From NCBI GenBank assembly GCA_011033025.1, contig WFMF01000008.1:1369001-1433000 (forward strand): a stretch of 64,000 nucleotides of DNA. The letters are read 5' to 3'. The notes below the pieces were generated by a model that was not told the origin of the DNA, made no database searches, and saw nothing but the letters and a program-made list of their open reading frames with translations. Below, one piece after another: positions 10,401 to 57,600 of this stretch. This DNA comes from Beroe forskalii. Taxonomy: Eukaryota > Ctenophora > Nuda > Beroida > Beroidae. The first letter of the stretch is position 1, and each line of letters opens with the position of its first letter. Position numbers and translations under genes: made by a program.

Positions 10401-13400
10401 ACCCTTTCAATTTCAAGATTTCAAACCCCTTCTCACCTTCAATCATGTTAGCAGTCGTGTTTATATAACGATAATAATAATTAAAGTCGTCAGTAACTTG
10501 TGAACATATTACAAAAACCTTTTCCAGTCAGCCAATTTATGAATTGATGTTGTAGATTCTTGGATGGGATTTGGGAGATTTCTTTGTACATATTATAGCT
10601 TCGTCAGATAAAAAACGAGTAGACTATAAACAGAATAAAATCGAACTGATTAGATTTAACGGGGGATATAACGCACCCCCATTATTTCAATAGGCTATGA
10701 TCACTTACTCAGAGTAGGTTTGGAAGGAGGGAGAGGCGGTAGAGGAGGTCTATCTGGTGCACTCCTTGGATCACTGCCAGTCCTGAACACGGGGGTCTTA
10801 CTAGAGTCTTCTTCCCCAGAAACTGCAGCAGCTCGCTTAGCGTACGGGGACGGCATCTTGGAGGGTCTGGCAGGAGGGCCATTAGGTGTTACTGCAGGAG
10901 GGCCATTAGGAGGGACTGCAGGTGGGCCATTAGGTGGGATTGCGGGTGGGCCAGTAGGTGGAAGTGCGGGTGGGCGAGAGGGGCTGTTGGGTGCGTCGGA
11001 GAGGGCAGGCGGGTTACTTCGCTTGGCACCTGAAATGTTGTGAGTATTAAGATTAAAGGACATTTTTAATTAAGGAAATTTTTGATAATCTGCGATGCGG
11101 AAAGGACACTACAGAGAAATTTCAAGTTCAAAAGATGTTTCCCTGGTAGACTGGTCAGTATTTGCAAGTATCTTACAAATTAAAAATTGCCATTTAGTCT
11201 GGTCAGCTAAGGCCAAAAAAGGGCTGCGGCCTGCAACGGCTTTAGAACCCTTAATGACCGGTTGCATTAGCTAGTTTTGGACCTCCTGAGTCCAAATCCG
11301 TCGAGACCCAATTTTGTTAGGTGGTGGAACATGGCGCAAATGCGCCATTTTGGCGCCATGGCGCCGAAAATGCTAACTTTGGCTAGGAAGGTCGTAGAGA
11401 CTTCGTTTTGGGCTCAAACGAACCGCAATGTGCGACTTTATATACAACTTGTTAATAAAAATATGTTCTAGAACCTTTACTTTTGAAGTTATTGAGCAAA
11501 AACCATAATATCTAGAGAAACATGCCTTCGTTTTAATAGCCCATAGCTGATAGGCATGCATGATTGTCATTATACGACAGTGAAAGATGGTCGGAGTCAT
11601 GTTTTTTAATGGCAGGCAAATATAAAATCATTTCCACATGGTAGACCTGTGCACGTCATATGGTACCTAGACAGTCATAGCGACAATACATGATAATAAT
11701 AATCAATACGTAAGTAGACAATTCCATTCTTTCTTATTGAAATTGTGATTTTCACGATTTATCTTTCTTTCTCAAAGAGAAGTCTGCTAATAAAGTTTAT
11801 GAAACTCCCTGTCAATTGTTAATAAATCTTGAAGTACGCTTCTTTGAACTGCAGAAATTTCAATGCAGACAGCAGATCTGCATTGCAGTCTGTCGTACCA
11901 CCTCAAGCAGCTCTATCGCAAGTACCACGATGTGAAACAGAATGGATGGTGCAAGTGCTGTAGAAAAACCAAGTTTGCCATCCTTGCATAGTGCGGATTA
12001 ATTCAAGGCTCACGCCTCATGAAAGCTTGGATTGTTTTGATCTATGCATTATTTAGGAAGGTATGTAAACTTTTGCATTGCCTGATCACCTTCTTTCGAA
12101 TGCTTGGTTTTGTTTTCCATATAAACTTATAAACTTATAAAATTATAATCATATAAGCATTTATCATTTATTCGACAACAAATGTGAACTTTCCTGTGGG
12201 TTGGTTTGAAATTCCAGCTTCTTCAAGATTTCGACTGCTTTTTCCAACACTATTACTCAATTAATGAACCCAATTTTAGAAACGGAACTTGGTTGTATTG
12301 GCGAAAGACGTGACGCAATTGTACAAATTGCGAGAAATGACAATTGGAATATTGAAACTTGTGCTAAGAAAACTAGAAATTGTCACTCCAGACATCAGCT
12401 CTTTCTTGTCCCAAATACAATCGTCATATAGTTCAAATAAAAGTAAAGAAGAATCAAAAACTTTCACATCTAAATTCGTGAATGATTGTATTAAACTCAA
12501 ACAATCAATAACTACCAATCCATTTGATGATACACCACTTCATAAACTGAATACTGCGATAATCTTTTCTGAAGAAACTGTACAAGCTATGAACGATGTT
12601 TTTGTGGTTGGTGAAAAGCAGAAAACAACCTTTATTGAAGATCGATTGGTGTTTGGAAAAAGTGATGTGATGGATACTTTAACAAAAAATAACTTGGCCT
12701 TGCCAAGCTGTTGTAATGCTCATAAGAGTGCACCAGTAGCCCGTACACTGACCTCCAAAACCTTGATAAAGTTAAGAGAAGCAGCTGAAAAACGAAAAGA
12801 TTTGGCCTTAAAAGTCTTTGAATCTGATTTTACTGGTAGGTACTAGGTATGGTTCATTACGTATCTTTTGATCACTTTATCAGTATTTCAACTTTGCTTG
12901 CCAGAGCTTCAGCTTTTTAAGTTTTTATTCTTCTGTTAACCATTTTATTACAGTATGACAGAAACAAAAAACATTTTTTCATTTTCTAAATTTCAGGTGG
13001 TCCTAATTGTTTTTTCAAGAAACTTGTGATATTGAAGAGAGAATAGACTCATATGTGGTAGATCTGGGCAGTATCCAAGTAGCCCGACACACTTAATAGA
13101 CGTCTACTATCTCGATAGTAGACGTCTATTAACACTTAATAGACGTCTACTAACTCTTAATAGAAGTCCACTATCTCGGTAATAGACGTCTATTACGAGT
13201 TAGTGGACGTCGATTAACAGGTAATAGAAGTCCACTATCTGGTTAATAGACGTAGACGTCTCAATAGACGTCGAAGTCCACTATCGACTTAGTGGACCTC
13301 CCATCATGCAGCCAAACTAATCAGCACGAATTCATATGCAGTTTGGAGTCTAATGTGGACGTCCACTATCTAGATTGATCTAATTAGCTGAATTAGGAGA

Positions 13401-16400
13401 CAACCAATCACAACGAAATCATATGCTGAGAGAAGTATAAATAAGAGAGTTCGGCTGTTCTCTCCATCGCATTCACCATGATTCCCTCCCTACAACAAGA
13501 GATCGTCTCCATCACTGACACTGAGGAACACGCCAGTTGTAATTCGCAGCACAGCAGCCGTGTTAACAGCAGAGTCAATAACATTCCGGGAATTTGTGCT
13601 GACTATATTGAACAATATAGCTTCATCTGCCAGAACACTACATGCAAAAGAAATATTAATCGTCAAAGATTTTTATAGTGACCTTTCAATTAAAAATGCC
13701 ACCAGAGCACAGAGAGGTACAAGTGTTGAGTTCGTCTTCAATGCTGATGATCCATTGCCAAAGGATATCATGAACGATCTGTCAAACTCAAGGTTCAAGA
13801 AGAAACTGAACAAAATGTTCAGTGATCGAAGTATTCTTAGTGACTGGCAATGGCAGGAAGACTTTTCAATAACAGATGAGAAGGAAATCTTTTCACGAGC
13901 TGGTGGTCAGACCTCTTCAGATGTTATTGTCTTTGAAGTCAAGGCATTAGAAGAAGCAGATAACCGGCTCCTGCTTCATATTCAGCATGCACTGAACCGA
14001 GGAAAAAAGACATGCCTAGTGCGAACAGTCGACTCAGATGTGGTTGTCATTTGCACTAGTTACCTAGAGCAATTCCTTGACCATGATCCCCAATTCAGAC
14101 TTTTCATAGACTTTGGTACAGGGCAAAACAGGCACTGGTATTGCATTAATGACTGCCTTGGAGCAATGGGTACTCCAACAGCATTGGGCTTAATGTTTTT
14201 CCATGCCTTCAGTGGCTGTGATTCCACTGCATCCTTTTTCAGACATAACAAGGGTCAAATTATGGAATCTTGGGCCTCATTTCCTGAGCAACAAAAGCTA
14301 AGTGCTTGTTATCAGCAGCTATCGTGGCAACCTACAATGACAACGATTTCCACTTGTCTTCCACTCATCGAGAAATTTGTCTGCTACTTTTATGGGTCCA
14401 GGTCAATTTCAAAGCTAAGTCAACTTCGCCTTGAGAAATTATTGACGATGACCACAGATGATTTGAGGGAGCTCCCCCCAACATCCAGCAGTCTCAGACT
14501 TCATGTTCTACGGGCGTGTTATCAAGCTGGTTGGGTATGGGGCAACACGTTTTCTCCAAACGATTGCCCAGAACTTACTGACATGGGTTGGATTGTATCT
14601 GATGGTTCTATTTCAGTCAAATGGACAGATGGGTCAGATGTAAGCTGCAACCTCTTAAGTGAACTGTTGAAATGTTGTAAGTGCCGGACTGCCTCATGTT
14701 CAGCATGTAGCTGCAAGAAAACCGGCAAGATATGTTTACTCAGATGTGGTTGCAAGGGACAATGTAATGTGGTCCATTGAATATTGAAGTAAATTGCAAA
14801 AGCAATTATGATTTTGCCTTGAAAACCCAGGGTTGGGCTTGGAAACAAATGAACTTAGTTTTCGTGTTATAATATTATGACTAGGGCTTTGGGAAATACA
14901 TTTTCTGGAATCATAATTCATAAGTCTTCTGATGAATGAACTTGTGGATGATAGCTTATATTATGCTTAGAAATGGGTTTAGCAAATAATTCTATGCAAC
15001 TTTTAGTTTATATTTTGAACAACTATGGCGAGAAAATGATTTTTGCTCAATAACTTCAAAAGTAAAGGTTCTAGATCATATGTTTATTAACAAGTTGTAT
15101 ATAAAGTCGCACATTGCGGTTCTTTTGAGCCCAAAACGAAGTCTCTACGACCTTCCTAGCGAAAGTTAGTATTTTTGGCGCCGCGTTGGCCCGAAAACGG
15201 TTTTTGCTTAATAACTCAAAAAGGAAAGGTTTTAGAATATATGTTTATTAACAAGTTGTATATAAACATGGCCATTGCGCTTCGTTTGAGCCCAAAACGA
15301 AGTCTCTACGACCTTCCTAGCCAAAGTTAGCATTTTCGGCGCCATGGCGCCAAAATGGCGCATTTGCGCCATGTTCCACCACCTATCAAAATTGGGTCTC
15401 GACGGATTTGGACTCAGGAGGTCCAAAACTAGCTAATGCAACCAGTCATTAAGGGTTCTAAAGCCGTTGCAGGCCGCAGCCCTTAACTGACTAGACTAAT
15501 TAACACCATGATATTCGTGTTTTTTATGCCATAAATAAACAGAAAAAGCAAGGAGTATTGAAAAATATCTTAGGGAATTTCCAAAATGGCCACGCCCATT
15601 TTTGACTATGATGGGAAAATTCAGTAACCCAGATAGGAAAAATAAATTTTGGTCATATGAAGCATGATGCAGGGTGTCTGAACCCATGTTTTTCAGGATG
15701 CTGAATCGATTGAAATGGTCATTTTTAGGCTCTGAGCATCACAGATGGCTGTAGGGACCACACCCACTTTGACCGTTAAAATTTTTGACCGATTTTGCCT
15801 CCCATAATTCTGCTTCATGACATAGCATGATGTCTGTCTAAACCTATGTTTTTCGGGACGCTGAATCGATCGAAAGGGTTTTTAGGCTCTGAGCATCACA
15901 GATGGCTGTTGGGACCACCCCCACTTTGACCACGGGAATTTTGACCGATTTTGCATCCCAGAACCCTCAATCCTGCTCCATGAAAACAAACAAATGAAAA
16001 TTTAATTTCAACTTGCATACTACTTTTAAACGAAAAATCCCAAAAATTGTCCTTCAATTTCAAAAGTTCATAATAATAATAATAATAATCAGAATCAGAA
16101 TCGCAGTCATTCCCTATTATATATCATAGTCATATACACAAGGTTGCACATAAAAACACTAAAATATCCCAGATTACGACAGATTACGTCAATCATTCAG
16201 AGAGCTACGCTGAGTTAACGCCTGAGCTCCGTGCCAGGGAGATTGTTGAGAGTCACCATTGATTATAACGAAACTCTCAAAGTCTTGAAGTCTCTTTTCA
16301 CTCTCCCAACCTAAGATCCACCGTGGTAACATGAAGTCCGAGACTGTCCGTTATCTCAGCACTGAAGACCCCCCTGACTGGCGTTTTTCAGTCTCAAACT

Positions 16401-19400
16401 CAAATCTCGGTGGTAACGAATCCGAGACTGTCCGCTAGCTCAGCCCTGAAGACTCCCTCACTTGTGCAGGAGCAATGAAGGGACCTGTGTTGCCAAGTCT
16501 GTGTGTAGGGAACTGCGATACTGCGGGGATAGGAGAATTAAAATAATAAGGTAATGGGATAAAATATGATACAACAATGAAATTAGATTTAAAAATGTAA
16601 GATAAAACGAGTGTCGTACCCCCCAGGTAATCAGGGACCGGTAAAATGAGACAAGAATTAAGATTAGAATCTGAGATGATATTAAGAAAGATGATATGAA
16701 TTAAACCTTCCCAGGGACCGGTAAAATACCGGTGTACTGTACATTATATTACATGGCTCATAAGCCCTTATTCGCCACCATATACATCGGGGAATTTCTT
16801 TAGTATAGGGTCGGTCGGATCCTGTAACCCCATGTTACGTAGTCGGTTGGGATCCTGTAACCCCATGTTATGTGGTCGTTTCCGACCCTATAAGCCCGAG
16901 CTACAATGATGACTCCGACGTAGATTCAATATGAAAGTTTATGACGTGAGTCGCCTACATATCTTTTTAGAGTCGTTCGGATCCTATAACCCCATGTTAT
17001 GGGATTTTCCAAGAGTTGATAGGGTATTTACAATGATGACATCGTCGTAGATTCAATAAGAAAGTTTATGACGTGAGTTGTCTACATTTGTTTGCGGACC
17101 ATTACACGATAACGATACCTGCCGCCTCAAGTGCCAATTCAATTTGAATAATTTGGTTTGGAACGCAGATATTCGAATTTTGTGGTATTTGAGACTCCAA
17201 TGATCAACAGGCTGTTCAAATGACGCCGTTATCTTGCTTCACTATGGTAAATTGCTACATGGCATCACAATAAGCATTCCATCGACATATGTCTACAAGT
17301 ACATGTCTTGAGGCCCGACAAAAATGCAATTACCGGCGAGAGCATTCTTACCATGACGCCTGATACACGTAAAACTATGGGACGTCATGTTTCATATTTC
17401 TTATGAGTTTCCACCACATAATTTATGTAATTTCGCCATGTAATATCACCACATTGTTTTGAACTTGGCTTCGCCTTGTCCAAAACAAACCATTATTAGC
17501 CTCAGCTTCGCTTCGGCCAATAATGCGTCTATATATAGTTCGCGCTTCGCGCTCACTACATATATGTGGTATTAGGTTACTCCTTCTAGTTCTATATTAT
17601 ATGGCTCCCAAGCACTATTTGCTATCATGTACATAGTAGTATTGAAGGGTTACTAACCTGAACCAGGTTAATAACCGCTTTATATTGAGTCCCTGAGACG
17701 GGATTAGTCCAGATCGACCGAATAACCCCAACGACATTAAGAGTAAATTTATCAATTGAACAATCTTAATCTTGGCTGCATAATCACATTCGTCGCAACA
17801 GCAATTAGAGCTCAAATCAGAGGAGTCAAAATTAGGTGCTCTAAATCAGTCTTAACGAAATCCATGATAGCAAACGGCGATTGAAACACATACTGTTCAT
17901 CCGGGCTTACAATTTATTTCCGGTATCACGGTTTGACATGACTCTGTACTCGAGAATCGAGATGAATCATGAACCACAATTAGAATGTTAAAACTTTCTG
18001 CCAAACAAATTAGCGGTAGACTCTTATAGCGTTCATCATCGTATAACGTATAAGTAGCGAATTAAAGTACCGACCAAGCTCCCTTATAATATGTGATAGC
18101 CCAGGCTAATTCTGATGGAATTTTAAGAATTACCATGATGTTCAGGTGAAGAGGAAAAGGGTATCGCTTCATTAAGTTATCGATTCAACACATGAAGATG
18201 AACGAATTATCTAAACATCTAACTATAATGGGTGTAATTCATTTCATTCGGCCTGTAAATTCTGTACTGCATATTTGAGTATTCGATACTTTAAAAACTA
18301 AATGTAATCAGCCCTGTGAATAAGATTACCAATGGCTCTTGCTTCCGGAAGTCTGCAGCCCTATCGAAAGACCATTATTTTCCATGTTTTAACTACGTTT
18401 TAATGAGTGGTTTCACATATATCATTATTAACCTCAGTAGAGATAGTAACATCTAGTTTTGAACTCGGCTTCGCTCGTACAAAACACATCATTATTGAAC
18501 TCGGCTTCGCCTCGTACAATAATGCATATATATATATGTCGCTCGCTGGCTCGCAACATATATCATGTTACTTACCTCTACTTCGGTTAATAGTTCTATA
18601 TTACATGGCTCATAGCCCTTATTCGCCAAAGTGGTGTCGGGAAAGGGGTCAAGGGGGTGCGGAAAAGTGGTGTCAAGGGAAAGTGGTGTCTGGTGTCGGG
18701 CGAAAAAGTGGTGTCAAGGGGAAGTGGTGTGGCGAAGGGGTGTGGGGTAGTGGTGCAAGGGAAAGGACGAGTGGTGTCAAGGAAAAAGTGGTGTCAAGGG
18801 AGAGTGGTGTCAAGGCTTCAAGAAAAAGTGGTGTCAAGGAAAAGTGGTGTCAAGGAAAAGTGGTGTCAAGGAAAAGTGGTGTCAAGGAAAAGTGGTGTCA
18901 AGATAGACTGGTGTCAAGCCTTTCTGCCGTCAAGGCTAACCGCTCTAAAAACAGTAAACACTGATAGTCATGTGATTGATGATTTGCTTCACACTCTGCG
19001 AACAATGCAACATGAAGCTCACAGCACAGCAAGCCTCATTATCTCCTTACATGGAATAATTAGCCGTACTTTCAATCTAATTATCACGTGACCTCCTAAT
19101 GGACATTATTGCTACGCAGTATACTGTAATCACTTGTCCTATGATGAGTGAAATTCAATGCTGCTGACAATGATGATATCTCGTATTTCAAACACAAGGA
19201 AATATCGTAACACCACACTTATATTCACTGAACACTCACTGTCCTCAGTTTTAAACTTAACAACACTACTTATTACAATCAAATTTGAGGTAAGAACCCG
19301 TTCCATGTGTATCTGACTATCTGATTCTCTTCGGAGATCAGAATCACACCTTTTGGCTTGTCTTCCCCTCGGAGGACTTTATCGAAATCAAGGGCAAAAA

Positions 19401-43997: not shown

Positions 43998-44261
43998 AAA
44001 AAATCCTAATGGAAGGGCACGCCTTCCCAATGCAAATGACATAAGTTTTGAAAAAAATACTGTTTATTTGATTGTTGATATATGTTTATTTCCATGGAAG
44101 ATTTCTTGGTTATAATCCATGAACTATTCATGATTTTTTATTTCTTATTTTCATTCTATCAAGGGGATCAAATACAGATGGATATTGGGTTAAATTCTAA
44201 TCAAATCATTATTCTTGAGTAGCCATTACTAATGTAGATGTCATAAAGCATTCATTGGACT

Positions 44262-45008
44262 ATGGAAAAAGATTCCGATTCTGAATATGAACTAGCTCAT
44301 GAGAAGTTTCCTGAAGAAGAGTTGATTGAAGAAGCTTTGAAAAGTCAAGATTTTGCAGAATATCAACCTCATGATGAAACACCAGTTTTCGCAGAAGGTA
44401 ATCAAAAAGATAAGGAAGAACTGAAAAATGATGCAGACACACAGGAATTGTACGACGATGATGAACTAATTGAGGTAAGAAGTATGGTTCTTCACATCAA
44501 ATCCGAAGCCAATGACCAGTTTCATGCATCAAACTATGGAGAAGCAGCAGATTTGTATACAGAAGCGATTGAGTTATGTCGACAGCAACTAAATGTGCTG
44601 AAAGCAGTTTTGCTAGCAAACAGGGCAGCCTGTCACTTGAAAAACTTGGAGTATGAGAAGACTGAGGAAGATTGTAGTGCTGTAATTGAGTTGGATCCTG
44701 CTTACTTGAAAGCACTTTTACGCAGAGCTTATGCTAGGGAACAACTTGATAAATTGACATTAGCTCTAGAGGATTATAAGCAAGTATTAGAAATTGACCC
44801 GAGTCAGTCAGCTGCAAGGGAAGCTGTATCACGTCTTCCTGGGCAAATTGAGATCCAGCAAGAGAAAATGAAAGAAGAATGTATTGGTAAACTTAAAGAC
44901 TTGGGTAATATTGTCTTGAAACCATTTGGTCTCAGTACTGACAATTTCAAAATGGTCCAAGACCCGGCCAGTGGTGGATATAACATTCAGTTTTCTCAGG
45001 AAAAGTAG
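44262..45008 (+). CDS. TTC1: Tetratricopeptide repeat protein 1
   Basis: A single exon of 248 codons, close to the human TTC1 length of about 290. Residues 1-72 are acidic and poorly structured. Three TPR motifs follow (about residues 78-185), recognised by ANDQFHASNYGEAADLYTEA, LLANRAACHLKNLEYEKTEE and YLKALLRRAYAREQLDKLTL. The C-terminal signature LGNIVLKPFGLSTDNFKMVQ is diagnostic of TTC1. The family binds Hsp70/Hsp90 ends and G-alpha proteins as a cytosolic co-chaperone or adaptor. FKBP3 starts 443 bp downstream on the same strand. An intronless coding region is unusual for this gene. Confidence 0.9.
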   Translation: MEKDSDSEYELAHEKFPEEELIEEALKSQDFAEYQPHDETPVFAEGNQKDKEELKNDADTQELYDDDELIEVRSMVLHIKSEANDQFHASNYGEAADLYTEAIELCRQQLNVLKAVLLANRAACHLKNLEYEKTEEDCSAVIELDPAYLKALLRRAYAREQLDKLTLALEDYKQVLEIDPSQSAAREAVSRLPGQIEIQQEKMKEECIGKLKDLGNIVLKPFGLSTDNFKMVQDPASGGYNIQFSQEK

Positions 45009-45451
45009 CATTTTCATAACTACCATTTTTATGTTTGATTAATATAATCGGAGTTATTTAATTCTACAGATTTTCTTATTTAATTAAAAGTTGATAAACT
45101 TATTTAAACTTAACATACTGGCTGAAACTTAGATACCTAAGTGTTTCAATGATTGAGGTGTCATTATTTTTAACTCTTAGCTGATCAGTTCTTATACCAG
45201 CCAATTGTGAGCTATAATTTGCATGATAAACCTACGTATATATTTTATTTGTACTCTATATATGTGGTCATTCTGTTTATAGTTGAAATTCCATATTGAG
45301 GTGCTGGTCCAAAATTTAAGTTTCAATTCCATTATCATTTCATTCCATTGCTATAAAGAAATTCTGGGCAGATAAAATATGAAATTAAGAATCCAAATAT
45401 ATGAATATCCATTGTACCTGCTTTAATTAAATTAACTAACTGAGGGATAAC

Positions 45452-47224
45452 ATGTCGTCTGTTTCTGTAGAGGAATTCAAAGCTGATAAGTACTCGAAGA
45501 AGGAAGCTATTGCATTTCTACAAGAAAATGCTTCAGTGAAGGTGAAATTTATGACCTTGATTGTTGATTGGGCAGTAGGTACTATTATCATACCATATGT
45601 TGTGAATTATCCCAACATAAACGCAATCCGACGCAATTCATAATTTATTGCTCTCATCTCGTGCTTGCCGGATAAAGTGATCAGGTAATCTATAATTAAA
45701 ATTTCAGTTTCTACAAGACAAGAAACTATTCGGGAAGCTTACAGCCATTGCTAAAGGATCTTCCAAAGATAAAGTTCTATCAGCTCTCGAAGCCTTTGAA
45801 GCTGATCCTGAGGTGAAATTTATAGTCTCTTTTAAATTATTGAGGTCGAATACTTTGCCGTTGGGAATTTGTGGTCCGTAATAATGAGTCGTAATTTGAT
45901 ACAACTCAAAATTATTTCTCCTTTACCAAAATCGAAAATCGAGTGCATTAAAATTTCATTGTCTTTAAAAGTCTTTGGTTTGAACAAACCAACCAAATAT
46001 AATTTCATTTCGTAAGTCTTTCTGATTTTACAGGCCAGGAAAGGGGCTGAGGATGGTGATTTAGCAGAAGCTCTTGAGAAAACCAAGGCTCTGAAAATAA
46101 AAGAAGAGGAGTGCAAGAAGAACCAGAAGGAGGCTGCAAAAGAAGCGGTAAGAATGCTCTTATTTCGATTTCCGCTAAGTTTTAGCAATAACCTTCAATC
46201 CGTTATTACTAAAACTGTTTCAATTATAAAATCACCCTAAAATCACATCTTCAAATGATGCATCATTAAGAACAAGTTCGTATCTATAAAATACATAGAC
46301 ACGCGCCTATCCGGTCCATTTTGGGATACTTCCAGAGGGCGTTAGCCCGAGGGATGTATCCTGTTTTTGCCCGAGCCCATAGGGCGAGGGTCTAAACCAA
46401 TATGGACCCGATCAGGCAAGTGTCTATATATTATAGACCTGCATGAAAACGTCAAAGGGTTCTATTACAGGAAGCCGGTGCAGCAGAGAAAGTTGGGTTC
46501 ACCAAGAAGGTTTTGAAGAAGGGGAAGACTCACATGAAGCCTGGAAAGGGCGATGTAGTGAGTGTGTGGTACACAGGTCTGTTTACATGTTATTGCATCA
46601 TAGCCATAATCTGTTATCTTAACTCATATGGCTTCTCCCATAGTTCGGAATTCGTCTCTTTGAAGCCTGTCTACTGTAGTCATACCATGGGATAAATGTT
46701 TCTCTCGTAGAGTAAATTTATAGTCTCAGATCTCCATTTGAATACAGAATTATCTGATATTATTCAGGTAAGCTTGAGGATGGAACGGTATTCGATTCAA
46801 ATGTGGAGAACTCCCGTAAGAAGGAGAGGAAAGCCCTCAAGTTTAAAGTTGGTACAGGTGAGAACAATATTTATTATAGGAATTCTGAACAATGTGCATC
46901 ATTTCAAAATCTTATCATGGGATTATCTCTCTATTTGGTAATCTATTATTGTCAAAGACTACGGAGTCCATTTAACTGTCAATCTATAAACTTTTAAAAT
47001 ATGATTTGGCCCTGCCAAACCATAACCTCTGTCTACCTCCAGGACTCGTTATCAGAGGTTGGGACGAAGCACTGCTTACCATGAGTTTTGGTGAGAAGGC
47101 GGAGATTACCATCGACCCGGAATGGGCGTACGGCAAGAAAGGCATGCCCGATGCCGGGATCCAGCCCAACTCAACGCTTATCTTCGAAGTGGAACTGGAG
47201 GTGCCTGTTAATATCGGAGTGTAG
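45452..47224 (+). CDS. FKBP3: FKBP-type peptidyl-prolyl isomerase of the FKBP3 (FKBP25) class
   Basis: Six exons keep phase: 45452-45541, 45708-45812, 46034-46147, 46471-46576, 46768-46857 and 47043-47224, for 228 residues (human FKBP3 has 224). The first two exons form the basic-tilted-helix domain (KKEAIAFLQENASVK, FLQDKKLFGKLTAIAKG) that binds nucleic acid. The third is a charged linker. The last three form the FKBP domain with KGDVVSVWYTG, LEDGTVFDSN, VIRGWDEALLTMSFGEKAEI and PEWAYGKKGMPDAGIQPNS. It catalyses proline cis-trans isomerisation and is nuclear in animals. Intron 3 carries a small MITE (46294-46438). Confidence 0.93.
46294..46438. mobile_element. Short MITE in FKBP3 intron 3
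   Basis: ATAGACACGCGCCTATCCGG at the left and its diverged complement at the right (CCGATCAGGCAAGTGTCTAT) form terminal inverted repeats of about 30 bp flanked by TA. It is about 145 bp with no coding content. Related sequence is found at 40845-40995. Confidence 0.65.
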
Positions 47225-48378
47225 CTTTGAGAGTGACTTTTTAACACAATATGTCCTGCTTAGGTGATATACATTGGAGGGTGCTCCGTAATGTGGCCCC
47301 TCCGTTCTTTTATATAATGGTATTCTTTTCCAGAATCCAGTCCGATATAAACAGTTGAATCCATGTTGGCTGTAAAAATGGGGAAATATGGTAATCAAGA
47401 ATATTATAATCGAAAACCCTATTTAATTTTTTGCTAATTTATCACTTTAAAACGTCCAGATTCCGTCAGATTGCCAAATAATGACCGAAATTTCAAGATC
47501 TTGGTCACCCATGTACACTGTACAGTAAAATTAGGATTTTTCTGTGAAGTTCATACTTTCAATTTTCATATCATGCTTTGCTGGTGAAATATTTGATGGA
47601 TTTGTTCTAAAATCTTGTAGTATTAGTTTTTAACCATGGTCCCTCTATAGATTGTAACGTTTAGGGTATAAGCGGAAACATCTATGTTTAATTACATAAT
47701 ACTTTCAATAACAAGCGCGTCTAAATCCACTTAATTTAACAGCTCAAATATAATGCTACAGATTTTTAGCACAATTTTTAACTATTTATTATTTAATAAC
47801 GTTGTGTTCGGTTCTGTTTCGCCTCTATTTTCCTGTCACAATTCATTTTATTGGCTTTGCTGTCCAAATCGCTTCCATTCTATTATTTTCCACGTGTTTG
47901 CAATAAATTAGATTTAACTCCCTTTTCGAGTAGTATGTCAGTATAACACTTAAAGATGTAACATTCATTTGATTTAACAGTTTAACAATGGTCCACGGGT
48001 GTATTAGAGTAGTAGAATTGGGTTTAACAATCCTTCCAATTTCTTGTGTAGTCTGTTAATTCATGTTCATAAGCTCCATTTTACTGTCATTTCTGCACCG
48101 CCATTTATTCATTGTAGATGAGTGCTGATCAGGACGTGTATGCAATTTTTATTTTGTAACACCCTTGTATTTGTCTAAACACGTTGTATTTTAGTATGGA
48201 ATTGTCGCCAATGTTGTCAGTAAATCTGATATTTTCTACATGAATTGGTAGTTTCATTGCTTCCACGGCAGAATCATAGCAGATTTCCATGTTTTTGTCA
48301 TCGGTTGAGTAAATTGGTTTTATTCTTTTGTTTTCTTTAGAAACAGGTTTATTACCTGCTGTAAGATTACAATCATGA
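47225..48378. other. Intergenic stretch between FKBP3 and the CLC gene
   Basis: AT-rich, with no exon, repeat or clear promoter motif that I can support. It must contain the FKBP3 3' untranslated region and the CLC promoter. Confidence 0.5.
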
Positions 48379-50823
48379 ATGTTGAAGTATTTGTACCTCC
48401 ATAAGTTAAATCAATCATACACTACGAAATCTTCTGAGATAGGTATGGAACTAAGAGGAATACTAGATGATGGATTCAGAGAACCCCTATTGGACGACTC
48501 GCCTGAGACACCACACACTTTCCTTGGAAACCGAGCAGGAAGCTCGAGTCCGTATCTCGGCGTGGACGACGATGACGACGACGAGGGGAGCATCGTAAGC
48601 GACATCATTGCAGACGACATCGGCACAGCGTACGACGACTTTCAGACGGTAGACTGGCTGCGAGACCAAGCCAGGGACAGGACACGGCACAAGCACACCA
48701 TGAGCCAGGGCTTTCTGTACCGGTGCGGCGATGCTGTCTCGGGGTGGATGGTGGTCTTCATCATCGGCCTGCTTTCCGGGCTCTTTGCCGGGATCATTGA
48801 GATAGGCGCCAAGTGGCTGATAGACGTGCGGGAAGGGTACTGCGGAGAGAAGTGGTTCCTGGACAAGGAAGCGTGTTGTTGGAGCAACTCTACGGTAATT
48901 TCAGAGGACTACTGCACCAACTGGATCAGGTGGTCCGACGTGTTGAGTGGGAGTAACCAGAGCGCAGTGCGGTACGTCATCAACTACTTCACCTACGTTG
49001 CTATCGGGACTGGGTTCGCAACGCTAACAGTTATCTTCGTCATGATAATTGCACCGTATGCCAGCGGTAGCGGTATTCCGGAAGTTAAGACGATTCTCAG
49101 CGGTTTCATCATCCGAGGCTACCTCGGACTCTCCACCCTCATGACCAAGTCGGTGGGCCTCATCCTGTGCGTTGCTTCCGGGCTCTCTCTCGGCAAGGAA
49201 GGTCCGATGGTCCATGTGGCGTGTTGCATCGGCAACGTGTTCGTTAGGCTCTTCCCCAAGTTCACTAAGAACGAGGCCAGGAAGCGTGAGGTGCTGTCCG
49301 CGGCAGCTGCCGCCGGCGTGTCTGTCGCCTTCGGGGCGCCTCTGGGTGGCGTGCTCTTCTCCCTGGAAGAAGTGAGCTACTACTTCCCCCACAAGACCCT
49401 CTGGCGGAGCTTCTTCGGGGCCATGGTGGCGTCCGTGGTCCTGCAGAGCCTCAACCCCTACAGCACGGGCCAGTCAGCGCTCTTCTACATCGAGTATGAC
49501 TACGCGTGGCACTTCTTCGAGCTGGTGCCCTTCCTTATCCTGGGCTGCATTGGTGGCGTGCTCGGGGCTATCTTCATCAAATGCAACATTTACTGGTGCA
49601 TCAAACGGAAAACAACGCGCCTTGGCCAGCACCCCTTTATCGAAGTTGCGGTTGTTGCGTTTATAACGGGTGTCATCAGTTTCGTCAACCCATATACCCG
49701 CAAATCGACGGCAGGTTTGATAAAGGAGCTGTTTTCCGTGTGTGAGTGGGAGGACAACTCGAACCTGTGCGACTACAACTTCACTCTGAAATACGTCACC
49801 AACAACGGCACGGAGCTGGCTAGCAACATCGCGTGGGGGCCCCCTCTCTCGGGCCTCAAGACAGCCATCTGGCAGCTGGTGATGGCTGCCATCGTCAAGT
49901 CCGTGATCACAGTCTTCACGTTCGGTCTGAAAGTGCCGGCAGGGCTGTTCATCCCCTCGCTGGCAGTGGGGGCGTGTCTAGGTCGGGTGGTGGGGGAGCT
50001 GGTCCAGTATATCACATACCTCAACCGGGACTCCCCCTTCCTCACCGGCATCTGCCCAGACATGTCAGTCTGCACTCTCACCGGCCTCTACGCCATGGTG
50101 GGGGCGGCGGCTGTCCTCAGCGGAGTGACCCGGATGACAGTGAGTCTGGTGGTCATCATGTTCGAGTTGACGGGGGGTATCACCTACATCGTGCCTATCA
50201 TGGTGGCCGTCATGACGGCTAAGTGGGTGGGGGACTATATCACTCCGGGGGGTATTTACGACGCGCACATCACCATTAACGGCTACCCCTACCTGGACGG
50301 CAAGGACCGCTTCATGCACACTTCAGTGTGTGAGGACGTGGTCCACAGCAAGCGCAGCAAGGATCTCAAGACGGTTAACGCTAGCAGCGTCACTATAGGG
50401 GATCTGGAGATGTTGCTGGAGTCCACCACTTACCACGGCTTCCCCATTGTGGCAGATCAGGAGTTCAATGTGGTGGTCGGGTACATCGGCCGGAACGACC
50501 TGGTACGGGCCCTCAAGTGTGCCCGGGACAGGCACATAGACCTGGTGAACGCTAGTAGGGTCTACTTCAGCGATGCCCTGCAGAGGTCCAATACTGGCGG
50601 GGGCCCTATCTCAGTTTCCTTTGGGAAGTTCGTTAACCACGACCCGATCTGTATCGAGCCCAAAACCCCGCTAGCCCACACTATCGACATGTTCACTAAG
50701 CTCGGACTAAGCCAGGTTCTGGTGACCCACCGGGGGAAGTTAAAGGGCATCATAACCCGTAAAGATGTCTTGAGACACGTGGATCATCTGAAAATATCCT
50801 GTAATGGGCACATGCTGTATTGA
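48379..50823 (+). CDS. CLCN3/4/5-like: CLC-3/4/5-type chloride/proton exchanger
   Basis: One open frame of 814 codons without introns. An alternative start at 48445 (MELRGILDDGFREPLLDD) may be the real one. Family motifs: TVDWLRDQARDRTRHK before the first helix; GSGIP near residue 230; GKEGP with the gating glutamate at about E274; FGAPLGGVLFSLEEVSYYFP; the proton glutamate at about E381 in FFELVPF; and VGAAAVLSGVTRMTVSLVVI. Two CBS domains follow (about residues 650-810). Both exchanger glutamates are kept, so this should be an endosomal 2Cl-/H+ antiporter and not a channel. The gene is clearly more GC-rich than its surroundings. An intronless copy suggests loss of introns or a retrocopy; there is no obvious A tract downstream. 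AATAAA lies at 51150-51155. Confidence 0.93.
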   Translation: MLKYLYLHKLNQSYTTKSSEIGMELRGILDDGFREPLLDDSPETPHTFLGNRAGSSSPYLGVDDDDDDEGSIVSDIIADDIGTAYDDFQTVDWLRDQARDRTRHKHTMSQGFLYRCGDAVSGWMVVFIIGLLSGLFAGIIEIGAKWLIDVREGYCGEKWFLDKEACCWSNSTVISEDYCTNWIRWSDVLSGSNQSAVRYVINYFTYVAIGTGFATLTVIFVMIIAPYASGSGIPEVKTILSGFIIRGYLGLSTLMTKSVGLILCVASGLSLGKEGPMVHVACCIGNVFVRLFPKFTKNEARKREVLSAAAAAGVSVAFGAPLGGVLFSLEEVSYYFPHKTLWRSFFGAMVASVVLQSLNPYSTGQSALFYIEYDYAWHFFELVPFLILGCIGGVLGAIFIKCNIYWCIKRKTTRLGQHPFIEVAVVAFITGVISFVNPYTRKSTAGLIKELFSVCEWEDNSNLCDYNFTLKYVTNNGTELASNIAWGPPLSGLKTAIWQLVMAAIVKSVITVFTFGLKVPAGLFIPSLAVGACLGRVVGELVQYITYLNRDSPFLTGICPDMSVCTLTGLYAMVGAAAVLSGVTRMTVSLVVIMFELTGGITYIVPIMVAVMTAKWVGDYITPGGIYDAHITINGYPYLDGKDRFMHTSVCEDVVHSKRSKDLKTVNASSVTIGDLEMLLESTTYHGFPIVADQEFNVVVGYIGRNDLVRALKCARDRHIDLVNASRVYFSDALQRSNTGGGPISVSFGKFVNHDPICIEPKTPLAHTIDMFTKLGLSQVLVTHRGKLKGIITRKDVLRHVDHLKISCNGHMLY

Positions 50824-51149
50824 ACTATTGAAGTATTGAAAGTATTTGTTGGAAAGTAATATTACCGTTTTTGGGTCACATGACTATAATTCCTTGAAAC
50901 TTGAAAGGTTAGTTCTTAGGTGCTGTGAAGCCCGAGTTGCTAGATGCTCTTACCTAAAACAATGTCAGGTTGGCTTGATATGCCATGTACGCTTAGTCAC
51001 GCTTCTTACTGAGCTAAGTCATAGGTGAAGACTGAATACGCTAATTAAACACTTAAACAATTATTTAAATTGCATTTGTCAAAAATAGTTGTCGATTTTA
51101 GGTCGCACATTATCATGATTCTGATATATAAAATGATATATAAAATGTA

Positions 51150-51155
51150 AATAAA
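51150..51155 (+). terminator. Polyadenylation signal AATAAA after the CLC gene
   Basis: A canonical AATAAA 327 bp after the CLC stop codon. It is the best candidate signal before RBM22. Confidence 0.45.
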
Positions 51156-51277
51156 CAAAATGTTTTGTGGTCAATCACTGTGCTACGATATAATTGCTGT
51201 TTGACGGTTGATTGTCAATTTATATCCGAAAGGACTCAGGGACCTAATGTTTGTATGTTTCTTATGTTAATTTGTTT

Positions 51278-51517
51278 GATTCTTGATTTTTAAAATACCA
51301 GGTTTATCACTCAAATCTTCTCTAATCTTCCATGATTGCCAATTTGTCTATGAATCTGCAATTTGGCAATTTAAAGCCGATCTGGAGAATAAATTCTGAT
51401 TCTTGATTTTTAAAATACCAGGTTTATCACTCAAATCTTCTCTAATCTTCCATGATTGCCAATTTGTCTATGAATCTGCAATTTGGCAATTTAAAGCCGA
51501 TCTGGGGAATAAATTCT
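51278..51517. repeat. Exact 120-bp tandem duplication
   Basis: 51278-51397 and 51398-51517 differ at one position that I can see (CTGGAGAA versus CTGGGGAA). Each copy contains the inverted words ATTGCCAATTTG and CAATTTGGCAAT. It lies about 100 bp upstream of the RBM22 start. Confidence 0.95.
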
Positions 51518-51614
51518 GTTGAATATAATAACTGCATAAAGATTAAAGACGAAAATTGATATGAAAATTGAATCGTGAGCATTATTAACCCCCCTTCTTG
51601 TAGAGTAGTAAGCG

Positions 51615-54600
51615 ATGGCCGTGTCGCTTGGAGCTAACACCTACAACCGGATGAACTGGGAGACCAGCGATTTCCCCATCCTCTGTCAGACCTGTCTCGG
51701 AGATAACCCCTACATGCGCATGATACGCGAGACGTACGGCAAGGAATGCACTATCTGCAACCGTCCTTTTACCGTCTTCAGGTAACCGTCATTTTACCGT
51801 CTTTAGGTAACCGCCCTTTTACCGTCTTCAGGTAACCGTCATTTCACTGTCTTCTGGTAACCGTCATTTTACTGTCTTCAGGTAACCGTCCTTTTACCGT
51901 CTTTAGGTAGCCGTCTTTTTACTGTCTTCAGGTAACCGTCCTTTTACCTCTTGAGTGCCATTTTCAATTCAACTTCGAACTCAGGAATCCTTCGGAAAGC
52001 ACCTGAATACCTATTATAAGCACCTGAATACCTATTATAGTTTTCATGTACATGTTCCATACACATCAAACATGTATATAACATGTACATGTTCCATATA
52101 CATCAAACTGTATATTTCACCGTCTCGTCTTGAAATGGTCCTCGTGTGCCCTAAACTGCTTGTTTCAGGTGGTGTCCTGGAGCTAAGATGAGGTACAAGA
52201 AGACGGAAGTATGTCAAACATGCGCCAAAACGAAGAACGTGTGTCAGACTTGTTTGCTGGACTTAGAGTACGGCTTACCAGTCCAGGTAATCTTGTAAAT
52301 TGACCCGTTATTAACTTTAAATAGCCCATGGATGTTGGTATTCTGTGCAGTGCAGTCAAACATGATAGTTTAGGATCCCTTTTTTGTGGTGGTACCATAG
52401 ATTTGTGGTTTTATGGTATAATCATTAATCAATGAAATGTAGCCTGTCATAGATTCTTCGTATGCGACCACCACAGACACGTGGTATGGGTGCAGTATGC
52501 TTTTGTATGCAAGAGTGTGCAAGTATCTAAGTAAAAACTACATGCCTATCATTGTTCAATTTGTAAACTTGTGAACATCTCCTCTCAGGTAAGAGATCAC
52601 GCTCTTAAAATGCAAGACAACATTCCCAAGTCCGATGTCAACCGGGAGTATTACCAGCAGAACAACGAATCAGCCCTTGCTAAGACCGGGGGTTCCAGTA
52701 AGTCACCTTAATCATGCTTGATTGTACAGGTTAAATCATCTCTTGCCCCACTTGTCACAATTGGAAAATTTTACCCAGAGCGCGAAATCCGCACGCATTT
52801 TGCTTGAACTAACAACAAATTGTTTTCTATCACAACACTATTTTTGCGCGCATTTTCATATTTCATTACGAATTTTCCCAAGGTGGTGCAGGAGGAAAGG
52901 CCCCTAACGAGTTGTTGATGAAGTTAGCTCGAACAACGCCCTACTACAAGCGGAACCGAGCCCATATCTGCTCGTTTTGGGTGAAAGGAGAGTGTAAAAG
53001 AGGGGAAGAGTGCCCGTACAGGCATGAAATGCCAACAGACCCTAACGACCCTCTTGCGAATCAGGTACCTAAGGCAACTTCTGAGAATAATTCAGAAATT
53101 TCTAATCCGTTCGTAATACTGATTGTGTGTGTCTAAGAATAAGTTCTCATTACTGACGTACCTAATGACTGTGTGCTGTAGCAGTCCTTATAAATTCTGA
53201 TATGCCAGCACATTTCTGAAATGGTACCAATTTTGTTTGGGATGAAAATTTCGATCCTTTTCTAAAATGGTACCGTTTATATCGATGAAATTTGGCACAT
53301 TTCTATGCAGTTCTACTTCTAGCAGAATGCAGATTTAAACCCCTATTATTATTAGTGGAAATTATGATAAAGGTCATATGATAAGTACACAGTGAAATTC
53401 ATGTATTCGAGCATTTCAGATGTCTCTCATTGTCATGAAAATGATCTGTCAATGATATTAATAATTTATCTACAAATAAAATCTATCTTCAAATAATATG
53501 CTCCCCATATTCTCGGGATCATAACAGAGTTCACCATACCGAGGCTTCCCCTAAACCTGGGATCACCTTTATTCACGGACTCCCCTGTACACTGCTCCCC
53601 TTAATCTAGGGTTCACCCGATTTTCCGGGGCTCACCTCAGTCACCTCTGTACACGGTCTCGCCCATACCAGACTCACCTCATTGTCGGGCTTCACCATAC
53701 CAGGCTCCACCAAACCTCGGGCTTCACCAATGCCTTGGGATAACCCCGATACAGGGGCTCACCCATACCAGACTCACCTCATTGCCGGGCTTCACCATAC
53801 CAGGCTCCACCGAACTCCGGGCTTCACCAATGCCTTGGGATAACCCCGATACAGGGGCTCACCCATACCAGACTCACCTCATTGCCGGGCTTCACCATAC
53901 CAGGCTCCACCGAACCTCGGGCTTCACCAATGCCTTGGGATAACCCCGATACAGGGGCTCATCCATACCAGACTCACCTCATTGCCGGGCTTCACCATAC
54001 CAGGCTCCACCGAACCTTGGGCTGCACTGATGTTCTGGGCTAACCCTGAAACAAGGGATCACCCATACGTGGCTCACCCTTACCTTGGGCTTCACCGAAC
54101 TTTGCTCGACCTTATCATGGTCTTCACCATAGCTTGGGCTCCCCCACACTTATTTGGGCTCCCCCTCCTAACTCGGGCTCCCCCATGCTAAGTCGGGCTG
54201 CCTCATATTAACTTGGGCTCCGCCTACCAACTCGGGCTCCCCCATGCTAACTTAGGCTCCGCCATGCTAACTTAGGCTCCCCCATACAATTTCGGGATCC
54301 CCCATAAAAAACTTGAACTCCTCCATACTAACTCCCCCATACCAACTCGGGCTCCTCCATACCAACTCCCCCATACTGTCGTGGCTCCCCCATACCTACT
54401 TGGGCTCCCCCATACTAAATCGGGCTCCCCCATATTAATTCGGGCTCCCCCATACTGTCGTGGCTATCCCATACCCACTTGGGCTCCCCCGTGCTAACTC
54501 GTGTTTTATTATCACTGCATCATGATGATATCTCGTATTTCAAACACAAGGAAATATCGTAACACCACACTTAGATTCACTGAACACTCTCTATCCGCAG

Positions 54601-57600
54601 TTTTAAACTTAACAACACTACTAATTACAATCAAGTTTGAGGTCCATGTGTATCTGAATCTCTTCGGAGATCAGAATCACACCTTTTGGCTTGTCTTCCC
54701 CTCGGAGGACTTTATCGAAATCAAAGTTATGAAAAGGAATCACCCTTCGCAATCTCGGATATTTAGCGCGTGAAAATGTTGTGTTGTGTCAGGCCCGAGA
54801 TGGGTCTCAAGCACGAGTGTCAAGGAAAAAGTGGTGTCAAGGAAAGAGTGGTGTCAAGGAAAGAGTGGTTTCAAGGAAAAGTGATGTCAAGGAAAAGTGG
54901 TGTCAAGGGAAAGTGGCGTCAAGGGAAAAGTGGTGTCAAGGAAAAAGGGTGTCAAGGAAAAAGTGGTGTCAAGGAAAAGTGGTGTCAAGGAAAAAGTGGT
55001 GTCAAGGAAAAGTGGTGTCAAGGGAAAGTGGTGTCAGGGCTTCAAGAAAGAAAAAGTGGTGACAAGGAAAAGTGGTGTCAAGGAAAAAGTGGTGTCAAGG
55101 GAAAAGTGGTGTCAAGGAAAAGTGGTGTCAAGGAAAAGTGGTGTCAAGGAAAAAGTGGTGTCAAGGGAAAGTGGTTTCAAGGCTTCAAGAAAAAGTGGTG
55201 TCAAGGAAAAGTGGTGCCAAGGAAAAGTGGTGTCAAGGAAAAGTGGTGTCAAGGAGAAGTGGTGTCAAGGAAAAGCCAATTCAAGGAAAAAGCAAATTAT
55301 ATTTCATTTCTTCATTACACACAAACAAATCAATAATAACTTTATTAATATGAATTACTATAAAATCCTAGTGTACATTCATGTAAGGTGTACGGGTACT
55401 ATAAACCTATGTTTTACTGGGACAAGGAATCGATTCCAAGTATAATCTAAGCACTATCGATCTTTCTTGACCCATTTTGCTGACCACGCTCACTTTTGTG
55501 TATGGAAATTTTGGGCCAAAATACCATTTTTCGATGATTCACAGTATATGCCATCTGGGTACCAGTGAAACTTGTGCAACATTGGATCAAGTAGGTTTGA
55601 GACATGTGAGACGTTAACAGAGACCTGTGAGACATTGAGAAATTTTCAGTTACAGGTATGAGACATTGAGACCTGACTCAAACAGTCCATAATGTTATTT
55701 TGCTCCTCAATCAATAGCCTTTATATTAACTTGTTATAATATGGAGCATCAATTATGGAGCATCAACAAGCTTCAAGTGTTCCAAACATACATGCTAGGC
55801 ATCATGTCCGAGCCATCAGGTAAGCACTAACAGCAAGTTTGTAAACTTGCATGCTGATCAAAGTCACAACACAGCATTATCCCAATTCTAATGAAATTAT
55901 TATTAAGTAAGCAGTGCTAAGACACGAATGATGCATGATAAAAACAGACCTTGTTTAAATACTGCTTAAGGTTCAACTGTTGTACCTAAACTTGTTTGAG
56001 AATGATTGCCAGTAAAGCAGTTTTGTGTGTTCGATTTTGTGCGTTTGAAACCGGGCTCTTCTTTATTGTTAAGTGTAGCAGTGTTTATAATTAGAACTGG
56101 AACTCCGGACTTACACCGAAAGTGCCATTGAGATATTCCAATGTTCTTCCCAAGAATGAAGAAGAAGAAGATAGTGAATGCTTCTCTGCTCTTATTAACC
56201 ATCCTAGTTTTGAACTACATCCTGCAGCAATTTCTACATACCAGCACAGATATTAAAAAAGTGACTACGAGGCATCAAAGAAATACCAAGAAAATAGCTT
56301 TGTTTGTTCAGGGCTTTGGCATCGTTGATAAGTCCCTTTGGGGGGATATCAAGCAATGTATCAGGAATGTGGGTGAAGCGAAGCAGCTGGCTGATAACTT
56401 CACAGCTTACCCGTGGCTTAACATTCAGCCACCTGAACCTTTCAAATTCGATGTTTTCATCAGTTACCAAACAAGCGTTGATTTCGCTGGCATAAAGTCA
56501 ACATTAGAAAACCTTGGAGCCAATGAAGTCTTTGGATTTCCTATTTTGGTGAATCAGGGTTATGATATCAAGCAGTTCTACGAACAATTGCAGAGCACAG
56601 AAAGACTGATGGAAAACTCGAGTTCAAGCCGTTATCAGTCCTTCTTGAAAATACACACCAAATCCAAGTCATCATGGAGATGTAAGGTATTAGGAAGTTT
56701 GTGCGGATCTCCCAGGAACGTTTTAACTGCCCTTCAGACCCTGGGAAGCGCTCAGAACATTGGAATGATTGGTCCTCAGGGGTATGTGGCTCAGCGATCT
56801 ATCGGATCTGGAGCTTCTCTGAGCAACCAAATCAATACCACGCGTTACACAATCGAGAAAATGTTCATGCGCAACATCAAATACATGCAACTCATGTACT
56901 CAGAGATATACCACAAAACACTTGATTCGGAATCAGACTTTGCATTTTGTGCTGGCACCATGTTTTGGAGTCGGTATGAGGATTTCCAGGTCGGGGCTTG
57001 GATGAGGATAATGCCTTGGTTATCTGGGAGGTGGTCGACTAAGTACGAAAGAGATGGTCAAATAGAGCACGCTGCAGAGAGAATGTTCGGGGTTATTCCC
57101 TTCCTCAACAACGTTACAATTGCTGAGATAGGAGTCCCACTACGACCCATAGGCATCTACCAACCCCCATATCACGAAATGCAAGAAATCCGTGGGAAGG
57201 ATGACACGGGATATTACGATATGACAGATGTCAATACCCGTAGGAAGCAGGGTGAAATGGCGAAAGCAGCTGGACTGCATGGCTTGATCTACAATCACTA
57301 CTGGGTTCTCAATAACACTCTGCAAGGAGAAGTGCCCGAGCTCATGTTACGAGATGGCTACCCAGACATACCCTTCATGTTTTGCTGGGTTCTTTTCAAG
57401 GAAGAAACTACTTCGTCATCAAGCGAAAGTTCAGGGAGAGAGCAGGCCTGGAAAATTCACTTTAATTATCTCTTGCCTTTCTTCAAGCATCGTAACTACA
57501 TAAACGTCGGCGGCAAACCTGTGTTTGTTATCAAAATGGCTAACCAGAACAATATAGATGCAATGCTACGATTTTGGAGGCAATTGGCTCCAAAAAGTGG

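Follow-up and report, generated by a model that had tools for sequence, protein, structure and literature searches.

The Academ superfamily of DNA transposons is listed among the DDD/E superfamilies in the available part of PMC9587614, and the excerpted description of its two groups gives AcademX target duplications of 3-4 bp and AcademH duplications of 9-10 bp, a difference linked to the encoded nuclease and helicase; the features named for AcademX include a DDD/E transposase and a nuclease (PMC10045372). On the strength of these excerpts, a transposon combining a DDD/E transposase, a nuclease and 3-4 bp duplications is already known (AcademX; PMC10045372, PMC9587614), and the role of the fused nuclease in its movement is left open there. 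The same partial sources give a mean length of 5565 bp for Academ elements in a curated bivalve library (PMC10294476) and a 4-bp TTAA duplication for Kolobok and piggyBac (PMC9587614). Here we describe an element at positions 11195-15498 of a 64,000-nt stretch of the ctenophore Beroe forskalii (assembly GCA_011033025.1, WFMF01000008.1:1,369,001-1,433,000, forward strand), which is called the window throughout and in whose coordinates the element is numbered. It is probably a non-autonomous derivative of an Academ-type DNA transposon with terminal inverted repeats (TIRs), most likely of AcademX, the fuller form of which would encode a DDD/E transposase together with a PIN/FEN-like nuclease and a CXC tail.

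The element is enclosed by inverted ends and by a 3-bp duplication, ATT, found at 11192-11194 on the left and at 15499-15501 on the right. The left TIR (11195-11504) begins TAGTCTGGTCAG and the right TIR (15199-15498) terminates in ...CTGACTAGACTA, both having been delimited by inverted-repeat and genome-wide end searches; the inverted arms, 11219-11504 and 15199-15484, are 286 nt long and 95% complementary, and reach the ends at 11195 and 15498 across a short indel. The genome (216 Mb, 1134 contigs) was searched for copies and relatives of the element, with the reversed motif in the same genome as the control for all terminal-motif counts. The terminal 18-mer TAGTCTRGTCAGYTAAGG is present exactly at 70 places (33 forward, 37 reverse), as against none for the control, and a chance inverted repeat was rejected on these counts; the 70-place list includes 15 head-in pairs of ends, spaced 4.0-8.9 kb. 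With the terminal 314 bp as query, at least 50 matches were obtained among the best 40 of 1268 candidates scored, so that there are dozens of copies at the least. In a separate search, the only match over the whole element among the candidates scored is the window itself. Both ends could be read in 18 of the 21 copies examined (the window and 20 further pairs), and in all 18 the duplication is exact and 3 bp long: ATT, GAT, ATA, ACT, TAG, ATT, AGT, TAT, AAT, TTA, TAA, ACG, TGC, AAT, ATG, TAC, TAA and ATG. C297, C782 and C35c were set aside from this count, their ends being altered or lost; by eye, C782 has ATA on both sides, adjoining a mutated first base. Two tandem 161-bp subterminal repeats (15009-15330, + strand), detected by repeat search, extend into the right TIR on its inner side, and at C406:49245-50196 such repeats are spaced at about 171 bp and present in more copies; they are perhaps candidate transposase-binding sites.

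Joined flanks from the 18 copies were used in the search for empty sites, and six of them match element-free places among the best 40 of 1010 candidates scored, a depth at which little can be concluded from the lack of a match for the remaining 12. The matches number 1 for the window (C703), 29 rows for C754b, 3 for C669, 4 for C2, 1 for C580a and 1 for C172, and the letters of three of these sites were read: C703 for the window, C741 for C669 and C225 for C172. At the element's position C703 (476125-476374) reads ...TTGCCATTAAT..., with a single ATT; a 7-bp indel starts 2 bases to the right of the junction and further indels lie nearby, so this place is a diverged duplicate of the site and not an allele. 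C741 differs from the C669 flanks at 1 of 97 bases, inside the trinucleotide (TAC in place of the TGC of the filled copy), and C225 differs from the C172 flanks at 4 of 99. The original prediction, made from the window alone, had read the matching ends and the apparent ATT duplication as the marks of a DNA transposon, and the further copies and the empty sites bear it out.

What the window copy carries between its ends is a part of a larger gene. Sequence comparison shows 11505-12363 (+ strand) to be 5' sequence kept from the parent; where it aligns with the C721 copy, the two are about 98% identical. An approximate internal-deletion junction follows at 12364-12368, where the part shared with C721 stops (at about 12368) and a match to a fuller relative, L042 on C536, starts (at 12364); the N-terminus and the central DDE-candidate region are gone at this point. 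From 12364 to 12835 (+) stands what is left of the coding exon that links the central and nuclease domains, 72% identical to L042, with 12364-12837 aligning with L042 residues 743-901; the central domain and everything N-terminal of residue 743 are missing. A GT..AG intron was placed by inspection at 12836-12996 (+), where the frame breaks alike in L042 and L076 and is continuous in L039. The nuclease exon starts at 12997 and runs to 13064 (+), to about ...SYVVDL, as judged from the sequence and tblastn; it is interrupted at 13065-13536 by an inserted repeat, recognized by its genome copies and tandem array, and resumes at 13537-14780 (+), the stretch that aligns with the nuclease part of L042 and holds, by motif alignment, the PIN/FEN-like acidic motifs, the CXC tail and a stop codon at 14778-14780. 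The inserted repeat, 472 bp long, has copies 95-98% identical on C2, C171 and C199, together with a second C171 copy (89%, same strand) about 4.3 kb from the first, and contains, at 13089-13253, palindromic units of the TAGACGTC type in tandem array. Because no clear duplication flanks it in the window and all three other copies continue alike past its right edge, it is called LTR-like (resembling a long terminal repeat) only. The frame 13482-14780, which the original prediction had taken for that of the PIN-like protein, runs from stop to stop; from 13537 it is the rest of the nuclease exon, but its first part, to about 13536, lies within the inserted repeat, as does the ATG just before it at 13478, and neither is part of the nuclease gene.

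The C721 copy, again about 98% identical where it matches, has the CXC end fused to an N-terminal exon, with the middle absent; its right terminus was not matched. By sequence, it and the window copy are two different internal deletions of one putative parent, of a kind typical of non-autonomous derivatives, and the window copy is predicted to encode no complete protein now. If it moved in its present form, it would have done so only with protein from another copy, its central domain having been deleted and its nuclease exon interrupted.

The fuller protein was read from relatives in the same genome, whose frames were taken stop to stop: single frames of 1513 aa (L039), 1453 aa (L040) and 1297 aa (L041), and frames split around the intron in L042 (913+486 aa) and L076 (934+476 aa). 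It is about 1300-1500 aa long, with Cys motifs at the N-terminus, followed by a central domain, the PIN/FEN-like acidic region and the CXC tail. In the central region DNxD, a D in DQP/DMQ/DEG, and G..H are present in all six relatives that cover it, and DxxxE is present in eight of eight, the patterns for DNxD, the DQP-like motif and DxxxE having been fitted to the family itself. Pfam DUF6589 was matched by two of eight members (best E 8.4e-7), in L041 over residues 439-664, ending at DxxxE; a PDB profile search with the central part returned chance matches only. From these motifs we infer that the central D, D and E are those of a DDD/E transposase, and because the fuller relatives carry them, the central domain is the likely enzyme and the nuclease an accessory. 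The proposal that the PIN-like protein is itself the transposition enzyme, with a chemistry other than DDE, is not upheld, since in the fuller relatives the nuclease-like domain forms the C-terminal part of a bigger protein with conserved central D, D and E motifs of its own.

The aspartate motifs themselves do follow the PIN/FEN order, as had been proposed. Residues D36, D133, D157, D159 and D220 (numbered on the translation of 13563-14777) are invariant in eight of eight members, and the C-terminal motifs run strand-D, strand-D, [E/D]xD, DxD, G[CS]D, as in FEN/XPG enzymes; a host XPG fragment (L171) has the parallel EAEA, DDSD and GSDY. The nuclease of AcademX is of the XPG type. This order of acidic motifs is common to the FEN/XPG and PIN/NYN nucleases, with no significant profile match to either in this family; NYN gave a weak match in one member (E 0.014), below the cut-off. 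In the tail the Cys pattern is like that of the LIN54/tesmin CXC domain: Pfam TCR matched two of eight members, only L040 above the cut-off, and the best PDB profile match to the C-terminal part is the CXC domain of LIN54 (5fd3, E 0.013), with one further chance match. The window's CXC tail alone has no TCR match. Family queries found no relatives beyond this genome in the viral contigs and genome contigs sets, and tblastn against phages gave weak chance matches or none; the literature search turned up nothing naming this protein family, although it may nonetheless have been described.

The gene and the ends belong together at many places. The 102 genomic matches to the gene family were merged to 55 loci, and a locus was counted as associated if either of two terminal motifs, that of the window's type (type I) or that of a sister type (type II), lay within 10 kb. 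Eighteen of the 55 are associated, as against an estimated 0.6 or so expected by chance, and in all 18 the ends face outward; in one case (C782:17389) the end assigned belongs to a neighbouring copy. The sister end, allowing up to 2 mismatches, is found at 49 genome places, against 2 for the control, with 12 head-in pairs, and a relative on C274, 41-42% identical in the nuclease part, carries, 858 bp beyond its stop codon, the sister end TAGTCAGATCAGTTATGC. Elements of the sister type with ends like TAGTCAGRTCAGTTATGC were seen, for example, at C2:145470-149606, C304:221047-225544 and C592:327801-333804. Ends, duplications and empty sites thus tie to TIR transposons a family of hypothetical proteins with a PIN/FEN-like region and a CXC tail, as the original prediction had surmised, and such proteins in animal gene sets are best treated as transposon-derived unless shown otherwise. 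The open gene L042 (C536:222500-227812) has its right TIR; this copy may have been truncated, or else retained (domesticated). A search for terminal repeats plus duplications that was independent of the motifs found none convincing near the divergent relatives L039-L041 and L074-L077.

Between the window and C536 the nuclease region is 76% identical in amino acids and 75% in nucleotides, with a nonsynonymous rate (dN) of 0.157, a synonymous rate (dS) of 1.54 and a dN/dS of 0.10; the ratio is 0.09 for the window, and 0.08 for C536, against the C406 and C345 arms of the palindromic copies described below. For the window against L039, dS was not computable. The excess of silent changes is large despite near-saturated dS, so the nuclease domain was kept up throughout the divergence of the family, under purifying selection.

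As far as the excerpts describe AcademX, this family shares with it the 3-bp duplications, a nuclease-like domain, a probable DDD/E transposase and a long element. The likeness is one of described features only, and the CXC tail and DUF6589 similarity were seen in this family. AcademH, which would belong to the same superfamily if this placement is right, differs, according to its partial description, by its 9-10 bp duplications and helicase; it was rejected on the 3-bp duplication seen here and on the lack of any helicase match above chance in Pfam scans of members (DExH14_plug, E 0.097 in one member). Kolobok and piggyBac were rejected on duplications that are 3 bp long and of varied sequence, not TTAA. 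The PIF/Harbinger duplication is a 3-bp TWA; that group was rejected on duplications including GAT, ACT, ACG, TGC and ATG, and on the lack of a Pfam match to its transposase.

Several observations weigh against the placement in AcademX and against parts of the domain assignment on which it draws. Membership in Academ, which remains most likely, is based on features and not on a tree or sequence comparison, and no Pfam DDE family was matched up to E 1 in the members scanned. On the nuclease side, hhalign against a FEN1 profile built from 14 archaeal FEN1 gave E 0.22 and 0.17, not significant, with the best alignments outside the motifs; in a comparison restricted to part of the region, to which one host XPG fragment and one further family member were added, the best alignment places GCD on FEN's GTDY, yet the score is not significant, being reached by 21 of 200 column shuffles; and XPG_I (PF00867) was found at 5 genome places, none of them at family loci. 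The low dN/dS values (0.08-0.10) rest on dS of 1.5-2.1, near saturation, and comparison with L076 gave 0.16 for the window and 0.27 for C536. Neither terminal motif lies within 10 kb of 37 of the 55 loci, and C536, which is the most complete of the copies with a type I end, yielded no left TIR in 218000-229500.

On the AcademX reading, the fuller element would encode one spliced protein with a Cys-motif N-terminus, a central DDD/E-type domain, the PIN/FEN-like nuclease and the CXC tail. Binding of the TIRs and of the 161-bp subterminal repeats may fall to its Cys-rich parts, cutting and joining of DNA at a 3-bp stagger would be the work of the central D-D-E residues, and the nuclease may trim or nick an intermediate; the window copy has lost the central domain by deletion and has had its nuclease exon cut by insertion of the repeat. 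That the only above-chance Pfam matches are to DUF6589 and TCR (each in two of eight), that the literature search found no mention of DUF6589 and that the likeness to Academ is by features and not by sequence would also suit a DDE-plus-nuclease TIR transposon of an undescribed superfamily, AcademX-like in duplication length and domain content and unrelated in sequence. We consider this unlikely, since the 3-bp duplication, nuclease-like region and probable DDD/E motifs agree with AcademX as excerpted (PMC10045372) and since Academ elements are long (mean 5565 bp in bivalves, according to the available part of PMC10294476), and a gene of this size would need an element of about that length or longer.

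The PIN/FEN-like domain could instead be the transposition nuclease itself, with a central domain that only binds DNA. Its invariant acidic motifs in PIN/FEN order (eight of eight), the purifying selection upon it and the retention of most of it in the window copy all fit such a role, and the C721 copy, which lacks both domains, says little against it, since this copy lacks its right end and need not have moved once the deletion had occurred. But the central domain has conserved acidic motifs of its own in six of six covering relatives, and a fixed 3-bp duplication is commonly left by DDD/E enzymes, so that we give this role for the nuclease very little credence. The interrupted and incomplete state of the window copy might also suggest a piece of a host gene that happened to become enclosed by inverted repeats and plays no part in movement; this becomes extremely improbable when the same kind of ends stand beside the gene at 18 of 55 loci, all outward-facing, when the window nuclease region has a dN/dS of about 0.1 against C536, and when the window and C721 retain different parts of one gene in the same order.

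Some derivatives are palindromic. At seven loci the 3' part of the gene is doubled head to head with one shared junction (element positions of about 2995 and 2761, with about 22 bp between): C345:146577-147989, C406:50508-51900, C782:17393-18802, C636:364338-365730, C702:20281-21669, C578:55640-56997 and C384:92786-94011. A shifted or eroded head-to-head junction is seen at C782:8939-10501, C782:37482-38457, C536:330797-332125 and C35. The C345 palindrome, about 7.5 kb long, has readable ends and a TAA duplication. In five comparisons among palindromic copies, one of them with the single-arm C345:99346, dN/dS is 0.78-1.14 at 1-5% divergence, and on this ground the palindromic copies are regarded as recent neutral passengers. 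One fold-back event that later spread is the simplest reading of the shared junction, and the copies are a possible source of hairpin RNA. More speculatively, and with only a slim chance of being right, the family could represent a superfamily not described before, or a separate branch within AcademX, where the fused FEN/PIN-type nuclease is essential for movement, processing an end flap or hairpin, and where its fold-back activity would also create palindromic derivatives that spread and could make hairpin RNA.

Elsewhere, no Rfam match was found in the window. Compact host genes lie at 44247-62697, encoding a TPR protein, a CLC chloride channel, a WbsX-type glycosyltransferase, a papain-family protease and an RRM protein. 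A related 16-bp repeat of the AAAAGTGGTGTCAAGG type is present in three separate arrays, at 1030-1969, 18633-18935 and 54817-55290.

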